This document shows positions 14,235-28,496 of a stretch of 64,000 nt of DNA, one piece after another (positions within the stretch are counted from its first letter, which is position 1; each line of letters starts with the position of its first letter). The stretch spans positions 992,001-1,056,000 of the forward strand of contig SRSI01000048.1 of NCBI GenBank assembly GCA_005656395.1, written 5' to 3'. Source of the stretch: Strongyloides papillosus (taxonomy: Eukaryota > Nematoda > Chromadorea > Rhabditida > Strongyloididae). The notes beneath the pieces were generated by a model. That model was not told where the DNA came from, did no database searches, and was given only the letters and a program-made list of their open reading frames with translations. The translations under genes and the position numbers were made by a program.

Positions 14235-15407
14235 TCATTGATAAATTCCAGCAAACAAAATATTATTTTCATTAATAATCAAATACAAAAATGGATGATC
14301 AGCTTTAACAACAATAGGTTCATTCCCGGAAGAAACATTTGATGTAGATTCATGCCACAAATGTGTCATCTCATCAGATTCTATACCTTCTTCATTAACA
14401 TCAACAGATACCTTTTGAGAAATATAATCAATTTTAAAGTTGTCTTCTTTTGTTATCATGGAAAAATTTGCCTTATCATTGAATGCTGACAATACTCCTA
14501 ACTTAATTAACGGTTCTTTAAAATCATGCGATACCTCAACAGTAAATTTTGGCATCACTAAATCAACATATTCGTAGTAAGTTAAATCTATAAGATTCAA
14601 TAGATCTTTATCTTTAAGATTTTCCAAATAATAATGAAGCATATTATCTTCTTTTGGTAAAATTAACACAAATTCACTATTACCATTTGAATATGGAAGT
14701 CTAACTACATGAAAATTTTTATCATTTCCATATATTAATGTATCCATTTTTTTCATCATCTTAACAATCTTTTTTTTATTGTTTTTAGTAGAAAATTCCC
14801 CGTCACTAGTTAAAGATTCATTAAATGATTCCTTCCAAAGGCCTTTAAAATAAAATGCATTTGTTATTATGCCTTTTTTTGAAGAAATAATGTTATCTGA
14901 TTTGATTGTGTTGTGAGATTTGGCACCCGAACTTTTCTTTATAAAATTATAGATTTTCTAGAAATAAAAAAGGTGATAATTTATATTTATTAATAATTGT
15001 CATACCTGTGCTGTGAATGTTGAATTTTCAAAATCAACACTTTCAAAAGTAGTCTTAAAATATTTCTCAGTTTCTAGTTTAAATATTTTATTAATAGCAT
15101 AGTCTTGTTGAAAGAATAGTTTGTTTCCAATATAAATACCATCTCCTCCCCTTCCTGAACCATAGATATTTGCAAATGAATCTCCTAACATTTCACAATA
15201 ATCTCCTTTCATCATGTATGGAGGTGACAATACTTTTTTGAATTCAATTTCCGTTATCCCACTTGATCCAAGATAACAGATAGCTAAAGCTAATGTCAAA
15301 GTGTACGAGGAAAAAGCTACATCCTCATTTGAATTAATTAATGTATTTAAAATATTAATTGTAAAATTTGCTTGCACTTGCAAACCAACATCATAATTCA
15401 TCGACAT
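14235..15407 (-). CDS. Serpin, intracellular type, atypical hinge (374 aa, 2 exons)
   Basis: Exon 1 is 15407-15006 and exon 2 is 14957-14235. The 48 nt intron (GTATGA..TTCTAG) joins FTAQ to KIYNF in frame. Serpin landmarks: helix A start (FTINILNTLI), breach/strand region ITNAFYFKGLWKESF, strand motif FTVEVSHDFKEPLIKLGV, and C-terminal HPFLYLIINENNILFAG. Total length is normal for the fold. No signal peptide is present (MSMNYDVGLQVQANF), so it is probably cytosolic like the ov-serpins and many nematode srp proteins. The proximal hinge reads VNEEGIESDEMTH, where inhibitory serpins carry small residues (GTEAAAAT type). This argues for a non-inhibitory or altered mechanism (inference). It is convergent with MCM6. 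Confidence 0.9.
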
Positions 15408-15856: not shown

Positions 15857-16350
15857 TTACATTGTCGCAAAAGCTTCCCATTCATCAAATAAATCTTGAG
15901 GGTTATCATCACTCTTTTCTCTGACATCTGTTACTCCATCATTAACAGCAACAGTACCATCACTTTTGATGATTCTCAAACATGGAATGGTTTTTGCCTC
16001 GTATTTTTCAATTAATTCCTGATGTTTTGGATTTCCAAATTCAAAGTAATTAAAAGTACTCATTTTCTCTTCATAGTATTCTTCAAACAACTCTTCTTCC
16101 TTGTCCTTTGTGATAACGACCACAGTGAAAGGTTTCCCAAGTTTGACCAATTGGTCGTGAAGTTTCTACAACAGAGATTAGAAAATTAAAACAGTAAACT
16201 TGCTTTTAGCTTTGGAGTAAACTTTTGACATGGTGGACACCAACTGGCTGTAAAATACAACCCAACGATCTTATCTTTAAGAAGCTCACCGCCAAGAACT
16301 TTTTCACCGTCTGGTTTTGTGATTTCAACGTCAGCAAATAACTCGGCCAT
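15857..16350 (-). CDS. Nucleoredoxin/tryparedoxin-like thioredoxin (151 aa, 2 exons, GC-AG intron)
   Basis: Exon 1 is 16350-16204 and exon 2 is 16165-15857. Exon 1 carries the thioredoxin-fold start and the active site W37-C38-P-P-C41 followed by QKFTPKLK, which is typical of nucleoredoxin-like and tryparedoxin-like proteins rather than classical WCGPC thioredoxins. Exon 2 supplies the central VVVITKD strand and a conserved Ile-cis-Pro (KTIPCLRI). It probably catalyses cytosolic or nuclear dithiol-disulphide exchange; the partner is unknown. The intron is only 38 nt and begins GCAAGT instead of GTAAGT. The nearby GT (5 nt downstream) would shift the frame, so a GC-AG intron is the consistent reading. 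No signal peptide. Confidence 0.85.
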
Positions 16351-16866: not shown

Positions 16867-19800
16867 TCATGCTACAGATTCTTTTAAATGAAGAGATCTC
16901 TTATCAATGGATCTTTGTTGTCCCAAAGTTCTTTGACTACTCAACGATATACTATCATTCTTCGTGGATCTTGTAATTGAACCATTCTCCACAAAATACC
17001 TATGTACAATATCACCAGTTTTCATTGGTCTATCTAAAAGTAATTCTTCATCACTATCATAAGTTGGTGAGGCTCTTGATTGTTCCTCAAGAGAACACTG
17101 TGGTAAATGCACTAATTTATTTTTACTTTTATCACTATTTTTATACTCTCTCCAATCGGCAATAATTTTTTCAGATGGTTGATTATATTCATAATTTGAA
17201 ATACCATGAACAGGAATTATTGGGTGTGTTGGGCGGTGATCAGTATTCCATTTTTTTAGATTATTTTCAGAGTTACTTGATTCCATATTACTATAATAAC
17301 TTTTATTTTTACCATTTTTTCTACCCGTCCTCCATGATGCATATTGGAAATAATTATTTGGTTGTGGATTTTTTTCAGGAACAGCCATTGATGCATTTGG
17401 AGATAAAAATACACTTATTTCTGATCCTCTATATGATACAGAGATTGATCTATTTAAATTATCATCTGGTGAGGAGGTAGAAGAAAATTTTTCTCCCAAA
17501 CCAACAGTTGATTTTTCTGAATATTCACTTCCAAAAGTAAAATTTTTTGATGATTGTTGTGGTGAATTTCTTGGTAACCATATCCATTCATTGGAAGTAT
17601 CTTCTGTCTTTTGGATATCAGAGATTGATGAATTAGAATTTAATCTAGCAAATATTGGTGCAACTAATTTTTCATACCCGTTATGAAGTTGATCACCACT
17701 ACAATTAATTATTTGAATTATTAATATTATTGAAAGGAGAAGGAAAATAAATAGGACAAATGGGTGAACATTAAAAAGAAAATTATTTTTTTTGTCATCA
17801 TCTATTGATTCAACTTTTTTAAATAACTCCTCCACTTTTTTTATTCTCTTTTTTTCTTCATCTTCCTCACTGACTATGTCAACTTCAATACGTTTACTAT
17901 CTTCTATTGGAAAAAATATTGGTATAACAAGTTGTCCATTTATTAATGGTGGTCCATCAGCTCCTTTACACGTTTCTTGAGATTTTATTGTTACTGTTAA
18001 TTGAACGTCACTTATATCAGATAAAGCAATTAGTTCAGGAACACCATGATTATACTTTTTATTTATAGCTAATATTCTTTCACCATCATTTGATTGAATA
18101 TTCATCGTATATTCGTGGCTTGGTACATCTGCTAATGATAAGTAATGAGAATCAGAAAATTTAAATCCTATATTAAGGATACCTCTTTCATATTGTGAAT
18201 TAAATTCATTCTTTACAATTTTCTGAAGATGAAAAAATTGTTCATTTTTTGTTGTTTCAAGATGGTGAATAATATTTATTATTGGTTCTAACCATAAATT
18301 GTTTATTGATACTGGTTCATTTGATATAGTTATTGTTGCAGAGGCTAACTCAATAGGTATATGAGATTTCTTGAAAATAACCCTTGAAACACCAGTTTTT
18401 TTAGGTAGTATAATTAATTTATCATGTATCTTTTTAATATCAGCAATAGTTTCATTCTCTATAGTTAATTTATTTATTACAAATGCTGTTATATCGAATA
18501 ACTTTTTTTTATTTTGTGATAAATATATTTCTTCACCAGTCTTTTGATTTGTATAATAAAAATTTGATAGCACTTTTACATCAGTCTGTTGAAATCTTTC
18601 CCGACAGGCAAATGTTTTAGCTTCTCTTCTTTTTTTCTTTTTACTTAACCATTTCCATACAGCTATAGACCAATCTTGTATTGAATTTAACATGTCATCT
18701 TCAATCCATATTTTTAATGGAAATTTTGGATACCATATCATAAAATTGACTTTACCATAAATATTATAATGTTTTGCTGTTATTGTAATACTTCCTGAAC
18801 CACGAGATTCACTACCGTCAACATAAACCATAGCACAGGATGGTGAAGTTTTTAATATTTTTGGTTCTGATGATGTACATTGTACATTAGAAGATAGTTC
18901 ATAAAAATTTCCTGAATTATAAATTCCAAATATTTTTAAAGAAGATGATATTTGTATATTAGATAGTATAGCTGTATTGATAATTTGATTATGTCTACTA
19001 ATTATTCCAAGTTTTTCTATTGTATCACCGTATACCAATAATGATGTGTTAACTTGTCTTTTTTTAGAATTATTTAATAATTCAGCAATTTTTGTTTCAT
19101 TTAACGTATTACCTTCTATAATTGTCCCTTGTAAAGACCAACGTAATGTAACACTTTTATTTTTATTAATATCAAAAAGTGTTTCTGTACCACTTTTATC
19201 AGTATCTTTACTTTCAATAGTCATACCAAATAATATTCCTTCCCAACCATTTTTTATTGTTTCATAGTTATTTAACCATAATATAAATGTAATTTTTCTT
19301 TTAAAATTATTATCTTTTTCAATTCTCATATCCCAAACATCAGGAGAGAGTGTCGTTGCTGTATGGAGATTAAAAGGCCTTGGTAATTCAAGTTTAATTT
19401 TTAAATAAAATGTACCATTTCCGATTAATTTATTCATCTCATCATTTTCATTTTCTTTTTGTTGGTAATTAAAATGAAGAAAAAACGTAGATAATGAATC
19501 ACTTTCAATTGAAATATTTGGATGACTTTTCAAAGAAATACTCCAATTATACCTTTCATCTAATATTGTACTGTCTAAATTAATCATTTGTGTTTTTAAT
19601 AAAACATCACTCTCCTCTGAAAGGTGTCGATGAGGAGGATAACAATGTAATGATGATATCGAGTAACTTCCTTTTAATTTTTGATAATTTTGTAAATTTT
19701 TTCTCGATATACTTTCATCAACATGTACAATATCAGGAGTCGGAAACCATATTAATGGAATATATAATCTCATAAGACATGTTTGGTTTCCATCCACTGA

Positions 19801-20616
19801 TATTAAACATTCTTCTGTTACTTTATATCCATGATCATTAACTAATTCAAATGTAATACATAATATAGTTTTAAAAAATTGTAACCATTCTATATATCCA
19901 TGAACTAGAACATCTACATATGGCTTATCCTATAAAATAAAAATCTCTTTGTACATTTAATGATTAAATAAATATATCTTTTTTTCTATTTAAATAAAAA
20001 AGAAAATTATTTATAACTTCTATAAATTAGCTTTTTCTTACTGATAAAGTAATTATACTAAGCGGAAATAGAATCATTTTCTTTTCTAATATATAAAAAA
20101 ATTACTTACAATATTAACTTTTTTGTCAACAACTTTTAACCCAATTCCACAATGAAGATTAGAATGCAAGGATGGCAAAAGAGAGGAATAACTTTTTGAT
20201 CCAATACTGGAACTAACAATTTGTTCCAGTGAATATGGGCAACCATTTAACATAAATATTTCCTCTTCTTCAATACCAGTATCATTTTCTTGGTTTTTAT
20301 CATTTCTTTCAAATGAATGTACCATAAAGACATCTCGTGTCGGGTGAATAGAAAGTACAGAGGATGAAACTATAAATATAGAAAAGTTATTTAACTTTTT
20401 ATACATACATATATTTTAATTTAATAAGGGCATATTTTCGAAATAGAAAGAAAAACTCAAACAACATTAATAAATTTATATATAATATTTTTATTTCTAA
20501 TGATAATAAAACTTTTACGAAAACTAACCTTCATTAACGGGAAAGAAGTAAAAATTCGCAACTGATAAAAGAATAATTCTACCAACAAACAAATTTGTTC
20601 CTCGATAACCAAACAT
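16867..20616 (-). CDS. TMEM132: TMEM132-family type I membrane protein (1136 aa, 3 exons)
   Basis: Exon 1 is 20616-20529, exon 2 is 20369-20110 and exon 3 is 19929-16867. Introns are 159 and 180 nt with GT..AG ends and an open frame across both. Residues 1-28 or so are an N-terminal hydrophobic signal or anchor. A long extracellular part follows, with the family pattern CLMRLYIPLIWFPT, scattered cysteines and Ig/cohesin-like strands (for example SVQCTSS, GSGSITITAKHYNIYGKV). A single membrane span lies at about 836-857 (FVLFIFLLLSIILIIQIINC), then a Ser-rich cytoplasmic tail of about 280 residues containing NEWIWLPR. Vertebrate and worm TMEM132 proteins are neuronal adhesion or cytoskeleton linkers; that role here is by homology only. 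Naming is recalled from family features, not searched. Confidence 0.7.
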
Positions 20617-23600: not shown

Positions 23601-23928
23601 CTATCAAAAATAAAACTAACATAATATACCTTGAAAAATAAAAGTAAAGTACTCTATTTTTTAATGAATAACAAAACCATAGATAATCAAATAATATTTT
23701 TTCAAAATAGCACTTCAACGTTATTTACGATTTAGTTTAATTTTAATTTAAGTATATTTTAAATGTAAAACAATAAAAAGACTATCACTTTCATCTGTAC
23801 AAATTTATTTATTTACAATTAAAACAAAAGAAAATTTATGGGAAAACTTTTTTATCGGTGTCATAATTCATTGACTATACAAATTGTTTGATACAAATAT
23901 TGTGGTAAGATTAACACTAAAATTGTTA
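20617..23928. other. Gene-poor AT-rich region
   Basis: About 3.3 kb upstream of the TMEM132 gene. Repeated short (AT)n tracts occur near 21290-21360, and there is a C/T-rich strand-biased patch at about 22440-22560. Frames here have no protein-like composition. It may be regulatory sequence for the TMEM132 gene, which is inference. Confidence 0.5.
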
Positions 23929-24389
23929 TTAAGGCTCTGCCACCATTCGTTTGTGTTTTGCTGCCTTGACCAATGCTATAAAGTCCCTTAATTTCACCAT
24001 GTTCAATTTTCCTGCGACCCCAGGTGGAGGGCGTAATGAAGGCATCTGACCATGATGTTCTCGGACCATCAAATGATCTGAAATCTCCTTGGGTTGGGGT
24101 ATAGGAGGCCCTACTAGTCCTTGGATTTCTAAAATATTATTTTTAATAATATTAACAAAAAAAAGACTTGGATAAGACTTACTCTGATGATGATTATTTA
24201 GGGAGTCACCGTCCCTAAAATAATAAAAAAAAAATAAAAAATGGCATCAGGGAATTCAAGACAAAAGGAAAAGATAAAATCTTTGATACATAAAAAAAGT
24301 GCTTAAACTTACATCGTAATTCTTTTTGATATCTGAGTGTAACTAGTAATAATTACAGTTACTAAAACAGCAATCGTCAAAACTTTCAT
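23929..24389 (-). CDS. Small secreted peptide precursor (102 aa, 3 exons)
   Basis: Exon 1 is 24389-24313, exon 2 is 24214-24183 (32 nt) and exon 3 is 24128-23929. Introns are 98 and 54 nt, with GTAAGT donors and TTTTAG acceptors, and the three exons join into one frame ending in TAA. Residues 1-17 are a clear signal peptide (MKVLTIAVLVTVIITSY), followed by a possible dibasic site SKR at 21-23. The remainder is free of cysteine, has a Pro-rich middle (LVGPPIPQP, LRPPPG) and a basic amphipathic helix near the end (KLRDFIALVKAAKHKR). This looks like a neuropeptide or peptide-hormone precursor, but I do not recognise the family. Exon 3 is markedly richer in G+C than its surroundings, as expected for coding sequence here. 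It is isolated, with over 2.9 kb free on each side. Confidence 0.75.
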
Positions 24390-27331: not shown

Positions 27332-28496
27332 ATGTCTGAAACACCATGGTATGTTTTATTTATAGTATCATAAATATGTTTATTTTTAATTGTAAGGCTG
27401 GAGAAATATCGTCCAACAAGAATAGAAGATATCGTTGGAAATCAAATAACAATGCAACGGTTAAAACATTTTGCTGTTAATGGAAATGTACCAAACCTAC
27501 TATTGTCTGTATGTTTAATTTATATTTCTATTACATAAATATTTGCTCATAGGGTCCACCTGGATGTGGTAAAACAACTTGCGTTTGGGCAATGGCTAAG
27601 GAATTACTAGGTGAGTACTCAAAAAAGGGTATACTAGAATTAAATGCATCCGATGAAAGGTGAGATATAATTTTTAGTTATTCTTTTAAATAACTAAACA
27701 AACAAATGAAAAATAAATTGCTAATATATATTCTATTTTTAGGGGTATCGATGTTGTAAGAGATAGAATAAAAAATTTTTGTCAAGCTAAAGTTACATTT
27801 CCTTCTCCACATATGACAAAAATTATAATACTTGATGAGGCAGATTCTATGACAGAGGGTGCTCAACAAGCTATGAGAAGGATTATGGAAGAGTATAGTG
27901 AAACAACAAGATTTGCATTTGCTTGTAATCAAAGTGAAAAAGTTATTGAACCATTACAATCTCGTTGTGCTATTGCACGTTTCTCAAAATTGACAGATGA
28001 GGAAATTTTAAAAAGATTATTGTATGTTTGTGAGAAAGAAAATGTTTCGTATGACCCAAAGGGTCTCCAAGCAATTATATTTACAGCAGATGGTGACATG
28101 AGACAAGCTCTGAATAATCTTCAGTGTACAGTTGCTGCCTATGGAACTGTAACAGATGACTATGTATATAAAGTTTGTGATGAACCACACCCTAATTTGA
28201 TAAAAAGTATATTTGAAGAGTGTGCTGTTGGGAATATGACCGATGCTTTTAAAGTTGTTGATCAATTATACAAATTAGGTTATTCTATACCAGATATTAT
28301 GAATCATATTGGTAGAATTTGCAAATTTTGCAAATTACCAGAAATTCTTAAGTTAGAGTATATGCGTGAGATAGGTCTTGTACATGCTGATGTTTTAAGA
28401 GGTGTGGCTAGTAGAGTGCAGCTTGCGGGTTTGATAGCAAGATTGTCTATGACGGAAAAAAGATTAAAGGAGGAAGAAATGGAGGCAAAAAAATAA
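27332..28496 (+). CDS. RFC2: RFC2, replication factor C small subunit (329 aa, 4 exons)
   Basis: Exons 27332-27348, 27397-27508, 27553-27659 and 27743-28496. Introns are 48, 44 and 83 nt. This AAA+ clamp-loader subunit opens PCNA at primer-template junctions in the nucleus. After MSETPW LEKYRP come RFC boxes: Walker A GPPGCGKT (residues 44-51), NASDERGIDVVR, Walker B LDEADSM (about 109), and sensor/arginine-finger SRC in [15 protein letters not shown] and KVCDEPHP point to human RFC2 (p40)/yeast Rfc4 rather than RFC4 or RFC5. Length is near the human 354, shorter at the N-terminus. The first exon encodes barely six residues. A poly(A) signal AATAAA lies at 28582-28587. Confidence 0.93.

Follow-up and report, generated by a model that had tools for sequence, protein, structure and literature searches.

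The question raised by this locus is which protein it encodes. Database records for the gene exist in four Strongyloides species, and they read its last exon in two different frames: the annotations of S. papillosus and S. stercoralis follow one frame (frame A in the following), while those of S. venezuelensis and S. ratti follow another (frame B). We analyzed the gene within a stretch of 64,000 nucleotides of DNA from S. papillosus (the window), which is described as a parasite of sheep (PMC5979966), and compared its possible products with the proteins of the other three species.

Gene model, surroundings and the two possible products

A previous interpretation made from the letters of this DNA (the sequence-only reading) had described a hidden three-exon gene for a secreted peptide precursor in a gene-poor region. 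The junctions proposed there, 24313/24214 and 24183/24128, proved exact, both introns carry the canonical splice sites that had been named (Table 1), and the joined frame of 102 aa is, as stated, free of cysteine. The joined product is identical to the database protein A0A0N5B9A5 of Strongyloides papillosus (100% identity over 102 aa). Since the product coincides with this protein and has a relative in S. stercoralis, the gene is more than a chance arrangement, and the three-exon gene on the minus strand of S. papillosus can be regarded as close to certain. The gene is real, but the description as hidden fails because a database model is already present.

Table 1. Features of the locus, with positions counted within the window
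Feature	Position	Strand	Description
Exon 1	24313..24389	-	ATG, signal-peptide-like stretch, QISKRIT; common to both products
Intron 1	24215..24312	-	98 nt, GTAAGT...TTTTAG
Exon 2	24183..24214	-	32-nt cassette, not divisible by three; included, frame A; skipped, frame B
Intron 2	24129..24182	-	54 nt, GTAAGT...TTTTAG
Exon 3, frame A	23929..24128	-	65 codons + TAA; C-terminus of the 102-aa product
Exon 3, frame B	23861..24128	-	88 codons + TGA (23863-23861); C-terminus of the 114-aa product
Frame A core GQMPSLRPPPGVAGKLNMVKLRDF	23980..24051	-	S. papillosus and S. stercoralis agree at 24/24 residues
Frame B tail past the frame A stop	23861..23929	-	Hydrophobic stretch + TGA; best 19-residue hydropathy 1.89
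AATAAA, possible polyadenylation signal	23808..23813	-	Downstream of both stops

On a local scale the term gene-poor is fair, with no other stop-to-stop ORF of at least 80 aa between 21366 and 27026. The nearest scanned neighbors are a TMEM132-like ORF (16867-19929, minus strand) and a replication factor C-like ORF (27717-28496, plus strand). The window further contains MCM6, Timeless and SprT-like ORFs, a serpin-family ORF (14235-14957, minus strand, Pfam E 1.8e-53) and, seen by eye only, a CPPC thioredoxin-like motif at about 16230-16250 on the minus strand. Between 42139 and 54429 on the plus strand, five ORFs of 239-241 aa lie 2.0-3.2 kb apart (42139, 45306, 48500, 51689 and 53710); two of them were scanned, both match 7TM_GPCR_Srx, one above the cut-off, and the five resemble chemoreceptor genes arranged in tandem.

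A check for orthologues in other nematodes, as suggested in the sequence-only reading, returned S. stercoralis, S. venezuelensis and S. ratti. Protein searches returned no relative outside Strongyloides; they required shared words of five residues, and distant relatives could be missed in this way. Three queries against the S. papillosus genome (58.2 Mb) gave no paralogue. The two matches of the S. venezuelensis query to this genome are the gene's own exons; the one stop counted there lies in intron 2, shortly before exon 3 begins.

The frame A product starts with the predicted signal-peptide-like hydrophobic N-terminus (19-residue hydropathy 1.84), directly followed by the SKR site, which is kept as SKR or SKK; the motif QISK[R/K] is found in the proteins of all four species. 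Peptides expected from the two frames would include GQMPSLRPPPGVAGK... for frame A and GDFRSFDGPR... for frame B. As the only other frame A relative, the protein searches yielded a 111-aa protein of S. stercoralis (58% identity over 98%), which is identical to S. papillosus at 45 of the 63 codons of exon 3 compared. This comparison confirms the conservation of the Pro-rich and helical block noticed earlier, but not its amphipathic character: in four S. papillosus windows the helical moment does not exceed that of shuffles (P 0.54-0.97), and of four S. stercoralis windows one is nominally above shuffles (P 0.025-0.042). AlphaFold2 predicts, at modest confidence, that residues 80-99 form a helix (mean pLDDT 61.5 for frame A, from a two-sequence alignment). 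The proposed C-terminal KHKR cleavage site is not retained, as it reads KHKQ in S. stercoralis (KR at 96-97 of frame A corresponds to KQ), while the KR/KK that follows the signal peptide is conserved. The amidation signal G[KR][KR] is absent from frame A in both S. papillosus and S. stercoralis.

Exon 2 is a cassette exon by its structure, being 32 nt long with TTTTAG before and GTAAGT after it. The residues that it encodes show little conservation: by eye, S. stercoralis shares 3 of 10 with S. papillosus. The S. stercoralis protein contains a counterpart, which the proteins of S. venezuelensis and S. ratti lack; judged from the protein only, the S. stercoralis counterpart would have 32 nt if exon 3 starts 6 nt further down, and otherwise 26 nt. 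Frame A of S. stercoralis is two residues shorter at the beginning of exon 3 (24122-24128, minus strand), which, inspected by hand, an acceptor six bases downstream would fit. Intron 2 is a multiple of three in length and stop-free in frame A, and its retention would add 18 residues and leave the frame unchanged.

In the S. papillosus DNA, exon 3 is open in frame B as well as in frame A, with 65 codons common to both, and thus exceeds the dual-coding threshold of at least 60 nt open in two frames (PMC13247117). Skipping of exon 2 (24313 joined to 24128) would give a frame B product of 114 aa, and 22 of its 88 exon 3 codons lie beyond the frame A stop. The S. venezuelensis protein, which was retrieved by a profile search, likewise matches exon 1 in its frame, continues with exon 3 read in frame B and is 84% identical, and the S. 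ratti protein SRAE_1000308300, found with the S. venezuelensis query, runs from exon 1 directly onto exon 3 in frame B. All three frame B products have 114 aa and show no indel. Compared to S. papillosus, 55 of 65 residues of the overlap are identical in S. venezuelensis and 47 of 65 in S. ratti; in the tail, 21 of 22 residues are identical in either species. On the nucleotide level, 1 of 69 tail positions changed versus S. venezuelensis and at least 1 of 69 versus S. ratti, with 6 of 54 and at least 18 of 54, respectively, in the signal peptide, which may evolve fast and would then be a generous yardstick for the tail. The predicted structure of S. venezuelensis frame B shows the tail as a helix at low confidence (mean pLDDT 45.7), and the pLDDT of frame A as well as of frame B is too low for a fold search. 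Pfam gave no match for the frame B protein of S. venezuelensis or S. ratti. An amidation site in frame B was considered and discarded: where S. papillosus has WGRRK, both S. venezuelensis and S. ratti have GCRK, and the site is hence not conserved.

Two frames in one DNA and signs of constraint on each

Of the four species, S. venezuelensis groups with S. papillosus in one subclade and S. ratti with S. stercoralis in the other (PMC5979966). The frame A and frame B models alternate within each of these subclades, which speaks against lineage-specific frames. Using dynamic programming, we found that a single DNA can encode the S. ratti frame B and the S. stercoralis frame A protein with 0/131 conflicts, a count in which the first two frame A codons of exon 3 were left unconstrained; in the control, in which the S. 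stercoralis sequence was shuffled 100 times, the number of conflicts never fell below 36. The two codons were dropped because the KK of S. stercoralis at this position misfits S. ratti frame B when inspected by hand. An acceptor 6 nt further down would explain this KK, and otherwise it amounts to two conflicts. The resulting composite is a parsimony DNA derived from the proteins of two species, and actual DNA was read for S. papillosus only. As expected, conflicts arise across the subclades (7/133 when S. ratti B is paired with S. papillosus A, and 7/131 when S. venezuelensis B is paired with S. stercoralis A), and within the other subclade S. venezuelensis B with S. papillosus A gives 4/133. 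Frame A of S. papillosus differs from that of S. stercoralis at 18 positions. S. ratti frame B allows both residues in 13 of these cases, only that of S. stercoralis in 5 and only that of S. papillosus in none. The same differences held against S. venezuelensis frame B gave 12 cases with both allowed, 1 with only S. stercoralis, 4 with only S. papillosus and 1 with neither.

Two explanations would do with a single coding frame. Frame A might be the only real one; the small exon would then have been overlooked in the S. venezuelensis and S. ratti models, which would continue in a frame that is open by chance. Gene finders easily miss small exons, and 6 of the 10 S. venezuelensis changes in the frame B overlap can be silent in A. 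However, a second frame of the frame B type is open in 0 of 4,748 overlapping 65-codon stretches from the ten other long stop-to-stop ORFs of the window. When synonymous codings of protein A were simulated, frame B was open at a frequency of 0.0003 (0.03%) with the codon usage of the window, in 1.9% with a blend and in 6.5-6.6% with the gene's own codons. Together with the preserved tail and 114-aa length of frame B, and with the constraint on this frame described below, these numbers render a lone frame A rather improbable. Conversely, frame B might be the only real one, and the A models of S. papillosus and S. stercoralis would be artefacts containing a spurious 32-nt exon. This would agree with the greater length of frame B, its equal length in three species and the conservation of its tail past the frame A stop. 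The opposite shift, from B to A, is open over 65 codons in 1.16% of the coding stretches in the same ten ORFs, and if frame B is the real one, finding A open over this length is no great rarity. Against a lone frame B speak the GTAAGT and TTTTAG bordering exon 2 and the counterpart of this exon in the S. stercoralis protein, and further the pattern of substitutions. The GC3 of exon 3 is 0.415 compared to 0.13-0.28 in the ten ORFs, as would be expected if the wobble sites bear a second message; other causes of a high GC3 exist.

For the constraint test we compared the S. papillosus DNA to the S. ratti/S. stercoralis composite. The two differ at 33 of 201 sites, with 14 changes at sites that are third position in A and first in B (A3/B1), 13 at A2/B3 and 6 at A1/B2 (67 sites each); the dropped codons account for two of the A1/B2 changes. 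If A alone were coding, changes should be most frequent at A3 and rarest at A2, and if B alone were coding, most frequent at B3; the counts match neither expectation well. The 31 changes in the fully scored stretch comprise 11 that are synonymous in A but not in B, 11 synonymous in B but not in A, 8 that hit both proteins and 1 silent in both, and changes altering both proteins are depleted (8/31 versus 47% expected, P 0.013). A two-parameter model, the estimates of which rest on these 31 changes, yields wA 0.40 and wB 0.41; freeing A is rejected with P 0.033 and freeing B with P 0.037, and leaving out the class silent in both gives P 0.047 (A) and 0.052 (B). This suggests a similar constraint on both frames, with P values that are individually modest and a composite made from two species.

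The site-class counts are not far from even and would, taken alone, also be compatible with non-coding constraint, i.e. with a conserved non-coding element in exon 3 in which the open frames are incidental and neither protein matters. This is extremely unlikely in view of the signal-peptide-like start and the splice sites, the length of frame B, which is maintained without indels in three species, and the depletion of changes altering both proteins; furthermore, no Rfam family was found at threshold in the window.

The local signals are stronger for A than for B. Between S. papillosus and S. stercoralis, frame A contains a run of 24 consecutive identical residues (Table 1) among the 63 compared (permutation P 0.00045), while B residues change in the same place. 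The A2/B3 sites, at which frame B wobbles, are free of changes over 25 codons (P 0.0067), yet first positions of B do change there: 6 of the 14 A3/B1 changes fall inside this 25-codon stretch (Fisher P 0.016, with the stretch picked post hoc). The longest identical run in frame B is unremarkable (P 0.44). Along with the constraint on A in the two-frame model, this pattern makes it unlikely that frame B is the only real one. The case for frame B rests on the conservation of its tail, its equal length without indels and its openness.

Nature of the encoded proteins and a putative splice switch

The sequence-only reading had recognized no family, which agrees with our searches insofar as Pfam and the PDB sequences contain no match to frame A and NCBIfam returns one match at E 0.16, far under the cut-off. 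The records themselves are named CLAVATA3/ESR-like in S. papillosus, Corticotropin-releasing factor domain-containing in S. stercoralis, and Secreted protein and Hypothetical/Uncharacterized protein in the other two species; the first two names are, as we would guess, machine-made. The CLE label occurs in the record name only, Pfam gave no match, and a comparison with the CLE motif by eye gave no fit. Similarity to NLP-49-2 is not above shuffles (P 0.52-0.56). Since glucagon, used as a control peptide, reaches P 0.04 against S. papillosus, such peptide P values mean little here.

CRF and DH44 are amidated peptides of about 40 residues. A reading of frame A as a nematode CRF/DH44-like hormone, as the S. 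stercoralis record name has it, would be in accord with the C-terminal segment of the S. stercoralis protein, which lies above shuffles for CRF (P 0.0095), urocortin (P 0.0035) and DH44 (P 0.03), and with the class B receptor family (Pfam 7tm_2), which has 7 matches in the genome. The corresponding S. papillosus segment, however, is not above shuffles for any of the three peptides (P 0.12-0.31, with 14 comparisons in all), Pfam PF00473 has no match in the genome or in the S. papillosus and S. stercoralis proteins, frame A lacks a C-terminal amidation signal, and the orthologue records bear unrelated names. In addition, the CRF system is reported to be apparently lost in nematodes (PMC6158228). 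We therefore hold a CRF-like identity to be very improbable.

The exons and splice sites, the two open frames of S. papillosus, the occurrence in either subclade of database proteins for each frame, the compatibility of these proteins with one DNA and the signs of constraint are all read from sequence. On this basis, we consider it probable that the locus is a dual-coding gene for secreted proteins that is switched by a small frame-changing exon. Exon 1 would provide the signal peptide and the QISK[R/K] motif for all products. Upon inclusion of exon 2, exon 3 would be translated in frame A, yielding a soluble 102-aa precursor with GQMPSLRPPPGVAGKLNMVKLRDF followed by the predicted helix, which may act as a secreted peptide ligand. 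Skipping of exon 2 would instead place exon 3 in frame B and yield a 114-aa secreted protein, the conserved C-terminal hydrophobic segment of which may serve in membrane tethering; the hydropathy of the tail and its low-confidence helix make a membrane-attached protein plausible. Such a switch presumes that both mRNAs are produced and that inclusion of exon 2 is regulated. The earlier interpretation hence holds in its core, a real and conserved spliced gene, but it overlooked the second conserved frame of exon 3. More tentatively, the 32-nt splice switch may be genus-wide and lead from a tethered protein B to a soluble and unrelated ligand A encoded by the same 195 nt, with both proteins under selection since before the split of the subclades; a link of the switch to the parasitic or free-living life stage is conceivable.

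Proving that both proteins of a dual-coding exon are under selection is difficult, and the gene offers a short case in a genus with four sequenced species that predicts two alternative junctions. Dual coding would also mend a conflicting annotation, in which four records with unrelated names give two different proteins as one. Should frame A be a ligand, it would be a secreted peptide of Strongyloides with no relative outside the genus in the protein searches made. A literature search gave no paper for SRAE_1000308300 and no title on the Strongyloides gene among the matches listed, and the two Strongyloides papers among the matches listed in a search on dual coding mention microexons only as a mapping option. 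A review dated 2023-24 states that peptidomics had not yet been applied in Strongyloides and that UTR data were missing for three of the four species (PMC10676819), which may be why dual coding went unnoticed. The mechanism as such is already known; within the literature searched, the novelty lies in the gene, in its pair of products and in the way these are conserved across Strongyloides.

Comparison with known systems

One exon that encodes two proteins in different frames, as proposed for the Strongyloides gene, is familiar from INK4a/ARF and XL-alpha-s/ALEX. These systems differ in that they employ alternative promoters or starts and give rise to intracellular proteins. The overlapping frame of ALEX has been described (PMC2329644). 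With nematode neuropeptide-like precursors (NLPs) such as NLP-49/SEB-3 (PMC6158228), the Strongyloides gene shares a small secreted precursor and a dibasic site after the signal peptide. Unlike in NLPs, frame A carries no signal for an amidated peptide, and its C-terminal dibasic site is not conserved. The main text of an NLP survey does not contain the word Strongyloides (PMC8764417).

Frame-changing splicing has been reported to cause 54 dual-coding events in C. elegans, among them the 28-nt microexon of tnt-3, which leads to 83 alternative residues and needs PRP-40 (PMC13247117). The likeness lies in a very short, non-triplet cassette exon that sets the downstream frame in tnt-3 (28 nt) and would do so in the gene of S. 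papillosus (32 nt). While tnt-3 encodes a muscle troponin T for which RNA-seq, RT-PCR and phenotypes are reported (PMC13247117), the Strongyloides gene encodes secreted proteins and is compared here among four species from sequence. A secreted precursor whose frame is shifted by inclusion of part of an exon, such that another C-terminus results, is found in IGF-1Ea/IGF-1Ec (mechano growth factor; PMC3485521). The extent of the change differs, however: IGF-1Ec has 25 alternative C-terminal residues and the mature hormone is common to both forms (PMC3485521), whereas in Strongyloides almost the whole secreted part would differ between the two products.
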